Positions 16,221-23,332 of a stretch of DNA of 64,000 bases are shown in pieces; within the stretch, counting starts at the first letter, position 1, and each line of letters starts with the position of its first letter. The DNA lies in the NCBI RefSeq assembly GCF_900128985.1, contig NZ_FQUC01000005.1:124001-188000 (forward strand), written 5' to 3'. The notes beneath the pieces are model-generated. The model had not been told where the DNA came from. It searched no databases and saw only the letters and a program-made list of their open reading frames with translations. Made by a program: the position numbers and the translations under genes. The stretch comes from Indolivaga macrotermitis (GTDB lineage: Bacteria > Bacteroidota > Bacteroidia > Bacteroidales > Dysgonomonadaceae).

Positions 16221-16318
16221 GGATTTGTATGGTATTTTAGAGTTAACAAAAAATTAAACTTCTGCAAAAATAAGATATTTATCAGAATAGCCTAAATATA
16301 GGCGATTTATTCATAAAA

Positions 16319-16361
16319 AAGAGCAGAAATGCTTCATTATACATACGACACTTCTGCTCTT
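16319..16361 (-). terminator. Intrinsic terminator after the GNAT gene
   Basis: A 10-bp stem AAGAGCAGAA / TTCTGCTCTT around a 23-base loop, continuing on the minus strand into UUUUUUAUG. It lies 35 bp after the GNAT stop. Confidence 0.75.
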
Positions 16362-16395
16362 GATTATTTATCTTTCGCCGGACATCCTCCGGTTT

Positions 16396-16839
16396 TTATT
16401 GAATGGTGAAACTACAGTTCAGGTTATCGTCCCCTACTGTTGCACCCATCTTCCTGTAAAAATTGATTGCCGATTCGTTCCAGTTAAGTACCTGCCAGTT
16501 AAGATACTTCACCTTTTTGTGCTTTGCATAATCAATCAGCCCGCAAACGAGCATTGTTCCGACCGAACTGCGACGATATTCGTCTTTTACATAAAGGTCA
16601 TCGAGATAGATGGACTTTCCGCTCCATGTATGGAACAGAGTCGAGAATAAGGCATAACCGACAATCTCATCTTTCGAGTTTTCGGCTATCAGGCAGGTAA
16701 AATAATCCATCTGTTGCTTAAACTCATCGGGGGTGGTTTTCACCTTTTCTATCTTACCGAGGTAAGTGGCAAATTCTTTGACCAGATTAAATACTGTGGG
16801 CAGGTCTTCTACCGTTGCTTTTCTTATTTTGATATCCAT
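16396..16839 (-). CDS. GNAT family N-acetyltransferase
   Basis: A 147-residue GCN5-related acetyltransferase. The start MDIKIRKATVEDLPTVFNLVKEFA is the usual beta1-alpha1. SIYLDDLYVKDEYRRSSVGTMLV is motif A with the acetyl-CoA-binding R/Q-x-x-G-x-G/A loop (here RRSSVG). LNWQVLNWNESAINFYRKMGA is motif B. The composition matches the diamine/spermidine-acetyltransferase-like subgroup (DLYV, NWNE-A-NFY), but the substrate cannot be fixed. Cytoplasmic, monocistronic. Confidence 0.85.
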   Translation of the reverse strand: MDIKIRKATVEDLPTVFNLVKEFATYLGKIEKVKTTPDEFKQQMDYFTCLIAENSKDEIVGYALFSTLFHTWSGKSIYLDDLYVKDEYRRSSVGTMLVCGLIDYAKHKKVKYLNWQVLNWNESAINFYRKMGATVGDDNLNCSFTIQ

Positions 16840-16924
16840 GTTCTATAAATTTTATCAGTGTTGTTTACCTAAATAAAGCTATACTTTTTAGAAAGAAATA
16901 AAAACAAAAAAATAGTTGGATAAA

Positions 16925-17195
16925 GCAAAAAGAGATTAAACCTGTAAACAAGCTTAATCTCTTTCGTATAAAGAAGAGCCGTACCGATGGAATATGACGA
17001 AACTCCGTAAAACAGGATTTGAGTGCCCCGCCCCCTTTGTAATTCACTGCGCATAAAGCAACCCCGAAGGGTGTGACCCGCCATTAGAAACGGTGAGCTT
17101 GTCTCGGAATTTGTTATTAATTGATGAGTTTCCCAATCGACCGATACGACCCCGTATTTTTGCAGGAGGCTCTCCTCCCCGTTTGGTCTTATTTC
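16925..17195 (-). ncRNA. Candidate novel structured small RNA, copy 1 (about 270 nt)
   Basis: A minus-strand RNA gene deduced from sequence alone. It has a promoter (17202-17232), a 5' hairpin (17165-17178, stem GGAGG/CCTCC, loop AGAG in the RNA), and a 9-bp long-range stem pairing 17140-17148 with 16980-16988. A 7-bp stem pairs 17126-17132 with 16999-17005. A UUCG tetraloop hairpin (ACCC-UUCG-GGGU) lies near 17061-17072, and the terminator is at 16929-16964. A second copy at 17623-17889 is about 80% identical over about 190 bp, and its substitutions preserve the stems. G-U pairs occur only if the minus strand is the RNA. No open frame is conserved between copies. I do not recognise an Rfam family. 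End points are estimates. Confidence 0.7.
16929..16964 (-). terminator. Intrinsic terminator of RNA copy 1
   Basis: An 11-bp perfect stem AAAGAGATTAA / TTAATCTCTTT with a 14-base loop. On the minus strand it continues into UUUUUGCUUU. Confidence 0.75.
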
Positions 17196-17201
17196 TTAGT
17201 T

Positions 17202-17232
17202 CAAAATTAGATTATAGAAATGAAAAAAGCAA
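17202..17232 (-). promoter_or_regulatory. Promoter of RNA copy 1 (TTG-N20-TAATTTTG)
   Basis: On the minus strand TTG at 17232-17230 is followed after 20 bases by TAATTTTG at 17209-17202, a full match to the Bacteroidetes -33/-7 consensus. The distance from the -7 box to the 5' hairpin (24 bases) is identical in copy 2. Confidence 0.65.
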
Positions 17233-17271
17233 GATTTAAAGCCATATTTTACTTTCCATGGATTAAAATTT

Positions 17272-17526
17272 CTAAAATACGATCTCCAACCGATCAAAAC
17301 GATAGATTTTATTCTTCCTCTCTTCGTCCTTATATACAATTATCCAGTAAATTTCTTTTTGTCTCAGATACTGTTCGTCCACATCGTACCGTTTGAGGAT
17401 CATGTAATCGTCACAAACCTTGCTCCAACCATATTTTTGTATATTATCCTGATCTATAAAGAATACGGAAACCTTACTGTTTTTAATATCCTTATCAAAA
17501 TAGTATTGGCAGCGGTCGATTTTAAG
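17272..17526 (-). pseudogene. Remnant of a Bacteroidetes small-protein gene between the two RNA copies
   Basis: An 84-codon open stretch with no start codon near its beginning and an in-frame TAA just upstream (17527-17529). A further in-frame stop lies beyond that after ten codons. The reading has protein-like composition, for example KVSVFFIDQDNIQKYGW, DYMILKRYDVDEQYL and EIYWIIVYKDEERK, ending FDRLEIVF. The W/I-RYD-L pattern recalls the C-terminus of small exported Bacteroidetes proteins, but I cannot name the family. The 5' half is missing, and the break lies near the 3' end of RNA copy 2. This suggests that duplication or insertion of the RNA element destroyed the gene. Confidence 0.5.
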
Positions 17527-17622
17527 TTAGTCGTTGTTAGTCAGTTCAATATAATGTTGTTATAAATATACCTGAATGTTGCCGTAGATATATAAATAAA
17601 AATGAATAGAAAAAAAGCGGAC

Positions 17623-17889
17623 AAAAAAAAGCAGACTATATCAAATAATATAATCTGCTTTTCTATAAAAATCGTACTGAAAGATAAAGACGAAACTCCG
17701 TGTAACAGGATTTGAGTGCTCCGCCCCTTTGTAATTCACTTGTGCCCTGAAGCATCCCCGGAGGGTGTGACCCGCCATTGGAAACGGTAAGCTTGTCTCG
17801 GAATTTATCTATTCATTGATGAGTTTCCTAATCGACCAGTACGACCTATATCTTTAATGGAGACTCTTCTCCTCGATTTCCTTAACTTG
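17623..17889 (-). ncRNA. Candidate novel structured small RNA, copy 2 (about 267 nt)
   Basis: Second copy of the element at 16925-17195. The 5' hairpin is at 17859-17872 (GGAGA/UCUCC, same AGAG loop; the closing pair changed G-C to A-U). The long-range stem is 17836-17843 with 17673-17680 (one pair changed from C-G to U-A and one from U-G to C-G relative to copy 1). GAAACUC/GAGUUUC pairing is kept (17821-17827 with 17692-17698). The tetraloop is UCCG in place of UUCG, both UNCG. The central sequence GGCGGGUCACACCCU and the AAUUACAAAGGGG block are conserved. Promoter at 17896-17926, terminator at 17627-17662. It lies 113 bp downstream of the FeoB-associated small gene on the same strand. Confidence 0.7.
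17627..17662 (-). terminator. Intrinsic terminator of RNA copy 2
   Basis: A 15-bp stem beginning AAAAGCAGA / TCTGCTTTT with one position that is C-A on the plus strand but G-U on the minus strand. It is followed on the minus strand by a run of U. The wobble pair supports minus-strand transcription. Confidence 0.85.
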
Positions 17890-17895
17890 TATAGT

Positions 17896-17926
17896 CAAAT
17901 ATATAGCTTGAATTTGAAATATCCAA
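17896..17926 (-). promoter_or_regulatory. Promoter of RNA copy 2 (TTTG-N19-TATATTTG)
   Basis: On the minus strand TTTG at 17926-17923, 19 bases, then TATATTTG at 17903-17896. Full match to the Bacteroidetes consensus and the same placement relative to the RNA as in copy 1. Confidence 0.7.
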
Positions 17927-18001
17927 ATATTTTCGAGGAAAAAATTTCCCCCATATAGTCCCCCAATATTTATTTATCTAATTTACAAGTATTTAAAATC
18001 A

Positions 18002-18154
18002 TCACTTCGTTTTCTCGGTTACATGACAATGACAGCTTGAGCATCCGCAGGCTGTTTTGCCCTTGTTCTTCCCAAAGAAAAAAGAATATACTTTATACCC
18101 GATCCATCCTAAAACACATAGACCAATAACGGCAACTATTATTTCCTGTACCAT
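18002..18154 (-). CDS. FeoB-associated Cys-rich membrane protein
   Basis: A 50-residue protein starting at the ATG complementary to 18152-18154. One transmembrane helix (about residues 4-20, IIVAVIGLCVLGWIGYKV) is followed by a basic linker (FFFGKNKGK) and the cysteine cluster CGCSSCHCH (residues 36-44). This is the layout of the FeoB-associated Cys-rich membrane protein family, small partners encoded directly next to feoB. It lies 66 bp downstream of the FeoAB stop on the same strand and is almost certainly co-transcribed. It probably binds iron or a metallo-cofactor at the inner membrane. The role is inferred from family and position. Confidence 0.85.
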   Translation of the reverse strand: MVQEIIVAVIGLCVLGWIGYKVYSFFFGKNKGKTACGCSSCHCHVTEKTK

Positions 18155-18220
18155 AACTTTACTATATAAACAGTTACAAATTCATTAACAATAAGACAGG
18201 CTGTTTCGTTCAGTATTCCG

Positions 18221-20698
18221 TCAGAGCAACAAACTTCCTATCTGGAATACAAGGAATGACAAAACCCATGCCAAAATTGAAGTATATGCAATACTGAACA
18301 TTCCCCATTTCCATGAGCCCGATTCTTCTTTGATCGCAGCAATCGTTGCCACGCAAGGGAAATATATCAGTACAAACAGTAATAAACTGGCTACAACGAG
18401 TGGTGTAAACGTAGGTGCGCCACTGGCATCGGTACTTGCCAACAGGCGGTCTTGCAACGAACCTTCGTCTTCGTCGGCATTACCTGTATAAAGAACACCG
18501 AGTGTACTTACCACTACTTCTTTGGCTGCACTGCCTGTCAGCAGAGCAACGCTTATACGCCAGTCGAATCCTAAAGGACGCATCACCGGTTCGATAAACT
18601 TACCGATACGCCCGATATAAGAGCTCTCGGTATGGTCTATATTTTTCAGTGATTCTATTTCGGCTATCTGCTCATCTTTTTGCACTTCCGATATACTGTT
18701 CGATTCGAACTGTTGTTCTACCTGTGCAATACGGGCATCGAGGCTTTCGACTGTATTTTCGTTTTGCGGAAAATATCCCAGAAACCAGATGGCAATAGAA
18801 GCTATAAGGATAATACCCCCCATCTTGCGAAGGTACTGGCGCGATTTATCCCACATATGGATAAGTACCGATTTCACTGTCGGCATACGGTAAGGAGGCA
18901 ATTCCATAACAAATGGAGCGTCTTCTCCTGCAAACAGGTATCGTTTGAATATCCGTGCCGAGATTACCGCCAATAATATACCTGTAGCATACAATCCGAA
19001 CAGGACCAGTCCGGCATATGATTTGAAAAATACTCCTGCAAATAACAGATATACCGGAAGGCGCGCGCTACACGACATAAACGGATTTACCAGCATGGTT
19101 ATCATACGGCTGTTGCGGCTCTCTATCGTACGGGTTGCCAGTATAGCAGGTACATTACAGCCGAATCCCATAATGAGAGGGATAAACGACTTGCCATGCA
19201 AGCCCATCTTATGCATGATCTTGTCCATAATGAAGGCTGCCCGTGCCATGTATCCCGAATCTTCCATAAAGGATATAAAGGCGTACAGGATAACGATATT
19301 GGGTAAGAATACGATAACGCCCCCTACTCCTCCGATAATACCATCTACAATGAGATCTTTGAGCATACCGTCGGGCATATATACGGATATAAATCCTCCG
19401 ATCCATTCCACACCTGCTTCGATCCATTCCATAGGATACCCTCCGAGGCGGAATGTACATTCGAACATGATCCACATGAATATGAAAAATAGCGGAAAAC
19501 CGAGGTATTTATTCGTTACCACAGCATCTATAATACGTGTAGTATCCGACTCTTTCAGTTTTTCTTTATATGTCTCTTTCAGTCCTCCTGCAACAAAACC
19601 GTAACGGGCGTTGGTTATTGCCGATTCGGTATCTTCGTTCAGGGTACTTTCTATATTTTTTACTTCGTGAGCCGTAATACTCAGAATCTCATCCGCCAGC
19701 TTGTAGTTTTCGGTCACGAAGGCTGTTACATCCCTGTCTTTCTCCAATAGTTTGATAGACAGGTAACGTGTGGGGAATATATCCTGCCGGTTGCCTTCTT
19801 TGTCGACAGCTATATTCAGGCGGCTGATAGAGTTCTCTATCGTATTGCCATAATATATCTTGATGTGCCGCACTATCGGCTCGCGATCTTCATGAATACG
19901 GATAACGGCATCGAACAGGTCTTTGATACCCATTCCCGAACGGCAAACGGTAGGGATGATAGGTATACCGAGCGACCGAGCCAGTTTTTCGTGGTCAAAC
20001 TCACTGCCGCTGGCCTGTAGCTCGTCATACATATTGAGGTCGATAACCATCGGTACACTCATGTCGATAAGCTCGGTTGTAAGGTACAGGTTACGCTCAA
20101 GGTTGGATGCCGCAACGACATTGATCACCACATCGGGCTTTTCTTCTACCAGATACCGGCGCACATACAACTCCTCAGGGGTATATGCCGATATAGAATA
20201 GGTTCCGGGCAAGTCGATTATCTTGATCTGATAATCGCCGTGCTTGAATTTACCCTCTTTCGAGTCGACTGTTACTCCACCATAGTTTCCGACATGCTCA
20301 TGGCCGCCCGAAGCTATATTGAAAAGCGAAGTTTTTCCTGCATTAGGATTACCGACCAACGCAACGGTTATTTTTTTTGTATTGCCGGGTTCTTTCTTAT
20401 GAAAAGAATCGTCGTCCCCGTAACTCTTTTCGAAGGAAAATTCTTCTTCGTGGGTCTTTTTTTTCTGTAAATCTTTGGGATAGATTACTTCTATGAGGTG
20501 AGCTTCGCTGCGCCGCAACGAAACTTCGTAATCCATTATTTTATATTTGATAGGGTCTTTAAGAGGGGCGTTAAGTATTACTTTAATCACCTTGCCTTTG
20601 ATAAATCCCATCTCGAGGATTCTTTTTCTGAAAGCACCACTGCCATTGACTTTGACTATAACACCCAGTTCGCCGGTCTTTAAGTCTGATAATAACAT
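18221..20698 (-). CDS. feoB: Fused FeoA-FeoB ferrous iron transporter
   Basis: An 825-residue inner-membrane Fe2+ transporter with an N-terminal FeoA (SH3-like) domain at about residues 1-75 (LKTGELGVIVKVNGSG, RILEMGFIKG). A charged linker (76-105) joins it to FeoB. The G domain shows G1 GNPNAGKTS (116-124), G2 GVTV (141-144), G3 DLPG (162-165) and G4 NMYD (222-225). The helical membrane part carries the two Gate motifs (GCNVPAILATRTIE; SCSARLPVYLLFAGVFF). A soluble insertion near residues 640-690 (ESLDARIAQVEQQFE) looks coiled-coil. FeoA-FeoB fusion is usual in Bacteroidetes. The small Cys-rich partner follows at 18002. No clear Fur box is visible upstream (20699-20760). Confidence 0.95.
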   Translation of the reverse strand: MLLSDLKTGELGVIVKVNGSGAFRKRILEMGFIKGKVIKVILNAPLKDPIKYKIMDYEVSLRRSEAHLIEVIYPKDLQKKKTHEEEFSFEKSYGDDDSFHKKEPGNTKKITVALVGNPNAGKTSLFNIASGGHEHVGNYGGVTVDSKEGKFKHGDYQIKIIDLPGTYSISAYTPEELYVRRYLVEEKPDVVINVVAASNLERNLYLTTELIDMSVPMVIDLNMYDELQASGSEFDHEKLARSLGIPIIPTVCRSGMGIKDLFDAVIRIHEDREPIVRHIKIYYGNTIENSISRLNIAVDKEGNRQDIFPTRYLSIKLLEKDRDVTAFVTENYKLADEILSITAHEVKNIESTLNEDTESAITNARYGFVAGGLKETYKEKLKESDTTRIIDAVVTNKYLGFPLFFIFMWIMFECTFRLGGYPMEWIEAGVEWIGGFISVYMPDGMLKDLIVDGIIGGVGGVIVFLPNIVILYAFISFMEDSGYMARAAFIMDKIMHKMGLHGKSFIPLIMGFGCNVPAILATRTIESRNSRMITMLVNPFMSCSARLPVYLLFAGVFFKSYAGLVLFGLYATGILLAVISARIFKRYLFAGEDAPFVMELPPYRMPTVKSVLIHMWDKSRQYLRKMGGIILIASIAIWFLGYFPQNENTVESLDARIAQVEQQFESNSISEVQKDEQIAEIESLKNIDHTESSYIGRIGKFIEPVMRPLGFDWRISVALLTGSAAKEVVVSTLGVLYTGNADEDEGSLQDRLLASTDASGAPTFTPLVVASLLLFVLIYFPCVATIAAIKEESGSWKWGMFSIAYTSILAWVLSFLVFQIGSLLL

Positions 20699-21957: not shown

Positions 21958-22572
21958 TCATTGCCTCAAACTTTCGCCCCGAAACAGTATACGGGTTGTA
22001 CAAGATTTAATCCTGTCGAGTACCCTGTCTCCGTATTGCCGGCTGATTTGCTCGACTGTAAGATTTGACGAAACGACGACGAGTTTGCCTTGTTTTTCGG
22101 CAGCATCCATTATTTCGGCAAAAGCAAGACGACGTTCGCCATAATTAACTATCATTTCTTCGGTTCCGATATCGTCGAGACAGAGTATATTTTTCGCCAA
22201 AACTTCATCCAGCTTACTATTCATCCTGCAAACATCATAAACACCGGCTACTTTACCCATATAGGATAAAAGAACCGCAGGGATAACATAGCGTGTAATC
22301 AGGCTTTTACCCCGTCCGCAGTTACCATAGAGAAAAAGCCCTTTGCCCTTATTATCGCTGAGCCAATCTGCCACTTTTTCGTATTCGGGCAGCCATTGGA
22401 GCTGTTCTCCGGTGAGTGACAAAAAATATCCGAGATACTGTTTCAATACATTCCGGGCATCCTCTATCCGGAAGTGAAACCGCTCGGCCGGTAATGGCAT
22501 TTTATGCAGACGCATCTGTGAGGTCAGCTGTTCAAAACTGGCAATATGTTGTACTGTTGGCATAGTTTGCAT
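21958..22572 (-). CDS. DnaC/IstB-like AAA+ ATPase
   Basis: A 204-residue P-loop protein. Walker A is GNCGRGKS (near residue 103), Walker B is ILCLDDIGTE (near 150), and sensor-1-like VVVSSNLT follows. The C-terminus has YGDRVLDRIKSCTTRILFRGESLR, the arginine-finger/box VII region typical of DnaC-type helicase loaders. The N-terminal 60 residues would be the partner-binding segment. Its start lies inside the end of the DUF4373 gene (41 bp overlap), so the two are translationally linked. Together they resemble a phage-type replication-initiation pair (DnaD-like plus DnaC-like). A role in helicase loading is inferred. Confidence 0.8.
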   Translation of the reverse strand: MQTMPTVQHIASFEQLTSQMRLHKMPLPAERFHFRIEDARNVLKQYLGYFLSLTGEQLQWLPEYEKVADWLSDNKGKGLFLYGNCGRGKSLITRYVIPAVLLSYMGKVAGVYDVCRMNSKLDEVLAKNILCLDDIGTEEMIVNYGERRLAFAEIMDAAEKQGKLVVVSSNLTVEQISRQYGDRVLDRIKSCTTRILFRGESLRQ

Positions 22573-23332
22573 AATTATGTTTCGGTTTATTCTTCGGTTC
22601 CATCTGTATCCGCAGCCAGTTGGTGAAATGTCTTTTTGCGTTTCTTAAAGAGACATTCGCCGCCCCTTCGTTCTGTAACTTTACAAAAAACAGTTTGAGG
22701 TACCGTATCAAAGCATCTTTATTCTCTATCTTTTTATTAAAAATCAGACTATCAGTGTAGTACGAATCGTTTAACAACGTATTCATTGTCTCTAAGAGTA
22801 CTTCCGATACAACATAATTTGTATTATCCACTTCAACAGATGCCGTGAGGCAGCCGCTTGTTTTAGTATCCTTTACTTTACTCTTGTTTACTTTAGTTTC
22901 TTTTACTTTACTTTGTGTATTACGGGAGTCATTAACCGGGTTATTGACGGAAGAAACGAGGTAAATGTCGTTCAAAACCACTTCTTTCCGTTTCTGGGTA
23001 GCAGCTATATATCGTGCCTGAATCGCTTCTGATGTGAGAATGCGATGTCTCACATACATCTTTTCGTCAAAGAAGCCCACTTCTACCGCCTTCTTTATTA
23101 CCAGTGTTACCGTATCTTCGTTTATCCCTAAAGTATCAGCCACACAAAATGCCAGATCGTCATCCCATGTGATATAATATCCCTTGTCCCTGTATATCTG
23201 ACAGAGCAGCCCGATAAGTATCGAATACGAATCGGAGCCATACGTTTTAGCTATCTTCCGCACCTTTATATCCTGAAAAATATCTACATCGAGAGGGAAG
23301 TAATCGAGTCCGCTTTTAAGAGGTCGTGCCAT
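22532..23332 (-). CDS. DUF4373 (Lin1244/Lin1753-like) DNA-replication-type protein
   Basis: A 266-residue protein. The N-terminal domain (residues 1-100, MARPLKSGLDYFPLDVDIFQ, then VRKIAKTYGSDSYSILIGLL, DKGYYITWDDDLAFCVAD and GFFDEKMYVRHRILTSEAIQARY) is the DUF4373 winged-helix domain found in phage and chromosomal replisome-organiser (DnaD-like) proteins. A low-complexity linker rich in K, V and S follows. The C-terminal part (about 170-255, FNKKIENKDALIRYLKLFFVKLQNEGAANVSLRNAKRHFTNWLRI) resembles a DnaD-type C-terminal helix bundle. It likely binds DNA and recruits the DnaC-like ATPase encoded in the overlapping next gene. No integrase or phage structural gene is nearby. Confidence 0.75.
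   Translation of the reverse strand: MARPLKSGLDYFPLDVDIFQDIKVRKIAKTYGSDSYSILIGLLCQIYRDKGYYITWDDDLAFCVADTLGINEDTVTLVIKKAVEVGFFDEKMYVRHRILTSEAIQARYIAATQKRKEVVLNDIYLVSSVNNPVNDSRNTQSKVKETKVNKSKVKDTKTSGCLTASVEVDNTNYVVSEVLLETMNTLLNDSYYTDSLIFNKKIENKDALIRYLKLFFVKLQNEGAANVSLRNAKRHFTNWLRIQMEPKNKPKHNYANYANSTTYCQF

Follow-up and report, generated by a model that had tools for sequence, protein, structure and literature searches.

Two tandem Bacteroidales-1 RNA genes, presumed to encode 6S RNA, each with its own promoter in Indolivaga macrotermitis

The window analyzed here is a stretch of 64,000 nucleotides of Indolivaga macrotermitis DNA (assembly GCF_900128985.1, contig NZ_FQUC01000005.1, positions 124,001 to 188,000). 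Two structured RNA elements lie in tandem on its minus strand, at 16925-17195 (copy 1) and 17623-17889 (copy 2). They are very probably paralogues of the Bacteroidales-1 family, the presumed 6S RNA of the Bacteroidales, each with its own housekeeping-type promoter and terminator. Both are members of this catalogued family, and the RNA itself is not new. The unusual aspect is that this genome and one relative have two adjacent copies, which carry separate start and stop signals. A first-pass annotation, made from the letters of the window, had described two minus-strand elements of a structured RNA, in tandem and with separate promoters; direct reading of the sequence places both at these positions, and this part of its interpretation is upheld.

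Family membership and distribution

In an Rfam search the cores of both copies matched RF01693 (Bacteroidales-1) over the full model (positions 1-179 of 179), copy 1 with 150 bits (E = 2e-25) and copy 2 with 127.4 bits (E = 7.6e-21). The curated gathering score is 60 bits, and one non-standard pair is flagged per copy in the Rfam structure. The RNA had been called apparently undescribed in the first-pass annotation, provided that no existing Rfam family was confidently matched; such a match was found for each copy, far above the gathering score. A previously undescribed RNA class is for practical purposes ruled out, since the matches exceed the curated threshold by 67 and 90 bits and nothing counts for it after the search. 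Two other Rfam families with E up to 1 in 16300-18300, Spd-sr07 (plus strand) and SurA, were far under their gathering scores. Bacteroidales-1 was published in 2010 (PMC2864571, from the part of that source available), and its Rfam description reads '6S-Bacteroidales RNA suggested'. The two cores are as follows.

16971-17151, minus strand: 6S-type RNA core of copy 1, the downstream copy, nearer to the single-copy relatives (RF01693 match)
17664-17846, minus strand: 6S-type RNA core of copy 2, the upstream and more diverged copy (RF01693 match)

Of the 101 genomes of the bacterial family, 96 had a match to RF01693, among them all 62 with at least 90% completeness and at most 5% contamination; this near-universal presence is as expected of a housekeeping RNA. 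Within the family, two copies were found only in the genome of the window and in Dysgonomonas capnocytophagoides, so that both copies are kept in two species. No doubled copies were found in the other 113 matching genomes of a 392-genome sample of the order (six candidates scored per genome, strict filters), where weak second copies could escape. The genus set comprised six genomes: that of the window, D. capnocytophagoides (G031), D. alginatilytica (G030), Dysgonomonas sp. HGC4 (G032), UBA10850 (G033) and G034. By the names of its genus-mates, the genome of the window would be assigned to Dysgonomonas. In all six the RNA sits between feoAB/FeoB-associated genes and a GNAT gene. One exact-pattern scan of viral contigs gave no 6S RNA match. 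A single pattern match was seen in a Parabacteroides metagenome-assembled genome (L101). From the 98 matches in the family, 93 sequences were collected, 88 of them distinct. Sequences of G057, G062, G064, G066 and G086 were left out of the alignments; that of G066 is truncated, and the other four are no more than about 350 bases from the start of their contigs.

Consensus structure and transcription signals

The consensus structure was derived with RNAalifold and pair counting from the 88 distinct sequences (alignment A1), to which all values for the core refer. Over the whole 40-pair structure, 98.7% of cells are paired. Shuffles gave 92.4%, and sliding the structure along the alignment gave no more than 47.0%, a control that favours the structure since the latter came from RNAalifold on the same alignment. 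Two-sided changes occur at 20 of the 40 pairs, and none of 500 shuffles was as high on all five measures. In the closing stem, 99.5% of cells are paired and 7 of the 13 pairs show two-sided changes. The inner stem GAAACUC/GAGUUUC (7 pairs) is paired in 100% of cells with one two-sided change; three of its pairs are invariant and therefore yield no covariation evidence. An A/U-rich bubble separates the inner stem from the apical arm, in which helices 4 and 5 are paired in 96.7% and 99.7% of cells, respectively. Both the closing and the inner stem are left unpaired in the Rfam structure line of RF01693, from which the structure given here differs in its closing stem; covariation is thus supplied for a stem absent from the curated structure. 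The fold energy of each element was lower than that of all 200 shuffles (z -3.73 and -3.80).

The covarying stems proposed in the first-pass annotation are strengthened by this larger set of sequences. Between the copies, one pair of the long-range stem does change from C-G to U-A and another from U-G to C-G, and the UUCG loop becomes UCCG, as had been noted. The parts of the core are listed below.

17137-17150, minus strand: 5' arm of the closing stem of copy 1, pairing with 16978-16992 (covariation)
16978-16992, minus strand: 3' arm of the closing stem of copy 1 (covariation)
17126-17132, minus strand: 5' arm of the inner stem of copy 1, GAAACUC, pairing with GAGUUUC at 16999-17005
17106-17125, minus strand: 5' strand of the central bubble of copy 1, 20 nt, A/U-rich, with 17006-17020 as the opposite strand (between helices in the consensus)
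17800-17820, minus strand: 5' strand of the central bubble of copy 2, 21 nt, in sequence unlike copy 1 (alignment)

Each element is preceded by the promoter box that was first annotated, which is of the Bacteroidota type, and is flanked by the following signals.

17202-17232, minus strand: promoter of copy 1, with TTG (17232-17230), 20 nt, and TAATTTTG (17209-17202) (sequence)
17896-17927, minus strand: promoter of copy 2, with TTTG (17927-17924), 20 nt, and TATATTTG (17903-17896) (sequence)
17164-17179, minus strand: hairpin in the 5' leader of copy 1, loop AGAG (covariation across the eight sequences of the genus)
17859-17872, minus strand: hairpin in the 5' leader of copy 2, loop AGAG (covariation and single-sequence fold)
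16925-16965, minus strand: intrinsic terminator of copy 1 (fold and terminator scan)
17623-17662, minus strand: terminator-like signal of copy 2, a hairpin and a T run (fold; counterpart in D. capnocytophagoides)

The promoter boxes are conserved: TAATTTTG recurs upstream of copy 1 and TATATTTG upstream of copy 2 in D. capnocytophagoides, and TAnnTTTG is present within 110 nt upstream in 92 of 93 family sequences, as compared with 8% of stretches after single-base shuffling. Promoters of the Escherichia coli type numbered four in 16800-18100 against 4.9 in shuffles, and are hence unsupported. In the genus (eight sequences), 48-56 nt separate the box from the start of the model. Outside the genus, 55 boxes lie at 22-24 nt and the others are spread from 13 to 102 nt; in most family sequences other than those of Dysgonomonas, the distance from box to RNA core is shorter by about 25 nt. 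The longer 5' leader with its hairpin is common to the Dysgonomonas sequences, the hairpin being clear in seven of eight and weak in G033.

The AGAG loop is present in both copies, with a G-C loop-closing pair in copy 1 and A-U in copy 2, as reported before. The distance from promoter to hairpin, given earlier as exactly 24 bases, was measured as 22 and 23 nt, and is about 21-25 nt in relatives. The 5-pair helix is paired in 97.5% of cells of the eight genus sequences, with two-sided changes at three of five pairs. Of 500 shuffles, 19 reached its both-sided changes, 84 its further pair types and none the other three measures; drawn from eight related sequences, these statistics are modest. The separate terminators that had been described were recovered in part. 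The terminator of copy 1 was the only one returned by the terminator scan (0.8 expected by chance); the hairpin and T run of copy 2 are present in the sequence and in the fold but were missed by the scan.

Evidence for a 6S RNA and proposed function

Long hairpins in which a central bubble lies between a closing stem and an apical arm are a feature of 6S RNAs, and the A/U-rich character of the central bubble is a further feature of these RNAs. This architecture is found in the consensus structure with covariation, and partially in single-sequence folds. Of the three 6S-type models tried, RF01693 is the sole candidate in this genome, since the other two, the general 6S model (RF00013) and 6S-Flavo (RF01685), matched nothing at E values up to 1, whether in the genome or in 16300-18300. 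Both also miss the Bacteroides control, so their silence does not separate a Bacteroidales 6S RNA from a different RNA. RF01693 was matched in just one of 14 control genomes, that of Bacteroides ihuae, in which neither RF00013 nor RF01685 had a match. A 6S RNA and two classes of product RNA (pRNA) were reported for Bacteroides thetaiotaomicron from differential RNA sequencing (PMC7366714, from the available part of the report). That 6S RNA would presumably be RF01693, by elimination from the Bacteroides control matches.

Several points weigh against the 6S assignment. The general and flavobacterial-type models are silent, and the identity is drawn from the Rfam note, elimination, architecture and the B. 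thetaiotaomicron data. RF01693 was matched in 114 of the 392 genomes of the order sample (83 above the cut-off), so coverage of the order Bacteroidales by the model is incomplete. Single-sequence minimum-energy folds are incomplete: that of copy 1 has 7 of 10 closing-stem pairs, all seven inner-stem pairs and none of the five 5' hairpin pairs, and that of copy 2 has 9 of 10, none of seven and five of five, respectively.

These elements could instead be a Bacteroidales-specific structured RNA other than 6S, such as a trans-acting or protein-binding regulator. Besides the two unmatched models, this is favoured by the Rfam wording, which is only 'suggested', and by the tabulation of Bacteroidales-1 apart from 6S-flavo in the available part of Weinberg 2010 (PMC2864571). 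It is nevertheless unlikely, given the near-universal presence in the family (94 of the 96 genomes with a match have one copy), the long interrupted hairpin with its central bubble, and the lack of any alternative candidate from the three 6S-type models tried.

For the presumed 6S RNAs, the most likely function is sequestration of RNA polymerase that would be released by pRNA synthesis, performed by two separately transcribed paralogues. Each copy would be transcribed from its own housekeeping-type promoter, would end at its own terminator and would fold into a long hairpin, closed by a stem at its base, interrupted by an A/U-rich bubble at its centre and capped by an apical arm. On the model of 6S RNA, the hairpin may mimic an open promoter, with the bubble in the place of the open complex, and may capture RNA polymerase holoenzyme, mainly in stationary phase. 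The polymerase would be set free on copying a short pRNA from the bubble.

Duplication, spacer and neighbouring frames

The copies are related by one duplication that preceded the split of the species of the window and D. capnocytophagoides, as follows from the tree topology. The four paralogue rows are grouped (99/86.8), with orthologue pairs at 100/90 and 100/99; the next to join is one single-copy genus row (99/80), G033 by the printed tree. The bootstrap of this tree is not fully settled. Identity between the orthologues of the two genomes is 94.5% for copy 1 and 94.0% for copy 2, and between paralogues within a genome 82.1% and 82.5%. One base is specific to copy 2.

17829, minus strand: A in copy 2 of both species; the remaining 86 of the 88 distinct sequences have G (alignment A1, column 25)

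Copy 2 might be a decaying duplicate, with copy 1 alone functional. In this respect, the single-copy genus members are more distant from the window's copy 2 (identity 0.777-0.801) than from copy 1 (0.842-0.845), and copy 2 carries more rare fixed states, eight (three of them in mostly-gap columns) against three. Departures from the 81 near-invariant columns number four and three in copy 2 and two and two in copy 1, with a mean of 0.79 in the rest. Decay is nevertheless improbable: the copy 2 orthologues are nearly as similar as those of copy 1, and the stems, promoter and terminator-like hairpin of copy 2 are kept beside a spacer that cannot be aligned.

17252-17622, minus strand: spacer between the copies, 371 bp (blastn, open-frame reading)

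Both copies are probably functional, because the spacer is unalignable while both RNAs and their promoters align between the species. The window spacer (17622-17252) had no blastn match to that of D. capnocytophagoides (L032 7347-7613), whereas the flanks did match; the simplest reading of this pattern would be selection on both RNAs and both promoters. The copies may divide labour through their different promoters and bubbles. A subfunctionalised pair is put forward tentatively, in which copy 2 binds or releases polymerase differently by virtue of a separate promoter, an altered bubble and the fixed change of a loop G at 17829. If true, it would let Dysgonomonas tune polymerase sequestration in two growth regimes.

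As compared with RF01693 elsewhere, the elements have the same full-length family match, and differ in the two tandem copies and in the longer 5' leader with its hairpin. Adjacent 6S paralogues are also described for the Bacillus cereus group, where, in the available part of the report (PMC7726162), the tandem 6S-1 and 6S-2 genes (ssrSA, ssrSB) share one promoter and a common precursor. In contrast, a separate promoter box and a separate terminator-like signal accompany each copy here, the 371-bp spacer is unlike that of D. capnocytophagoides, and the phylum and the Rfam family are different. Two 6S paralogues occur likewise in Bacillus subtilis, where expression of 6S-1 and 6S-2 peaks at different growth phases (PMC11077062, from the part available). 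No report of a tandem 6S pair in Bacteroidota was recognized by title or abstract opening among the literature matches listed, and an earlier report may exist. A separately promoted tandem 6S-type pair in this phylum could test whether 6S paralogues divide labour.

The spacer was rejected as a conserved gene. An open-frame stretch of 75 amino acids (17275-17499, minus strand) ends just upstream of the copy 1 promoter and has no listed start giving at least 60 amino acids. It was matched in 6 of the 101 family genomes, including that of the window; D. capnocytophagoides was unmatched. It resembles open frames of 136-144 amino acids in four family genomes (G013, G015, G017 and G089), and G019 gave a weak match (28% identity). 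The D. capnocytophagoides spacer holds a stretch of 86 amino acids (L032 7345-7605, plus strand), which also ends just upstream of the copy 1 promoter; across the six genomes of the genus it has 25 further matches, located in open frames 72-391 amino acids long. Pfam TscT was not accepted for part of this stretch (18.4 bits, cut-off 27). The two stretches, which differ between the species, are read as probable C-terminal gene remnants.

At 21958-23332 (minus strand), a Lin1244_N/DUF7833 protein overlaps a small ATPase whose similarity to IstB is weak and falls under the Pfam cut-off, a pair that presumably resembles a replication initiator and its loader. Similar-looking reading frames are present at the D. 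capnocytophagoides locus (L032 11325-12738).
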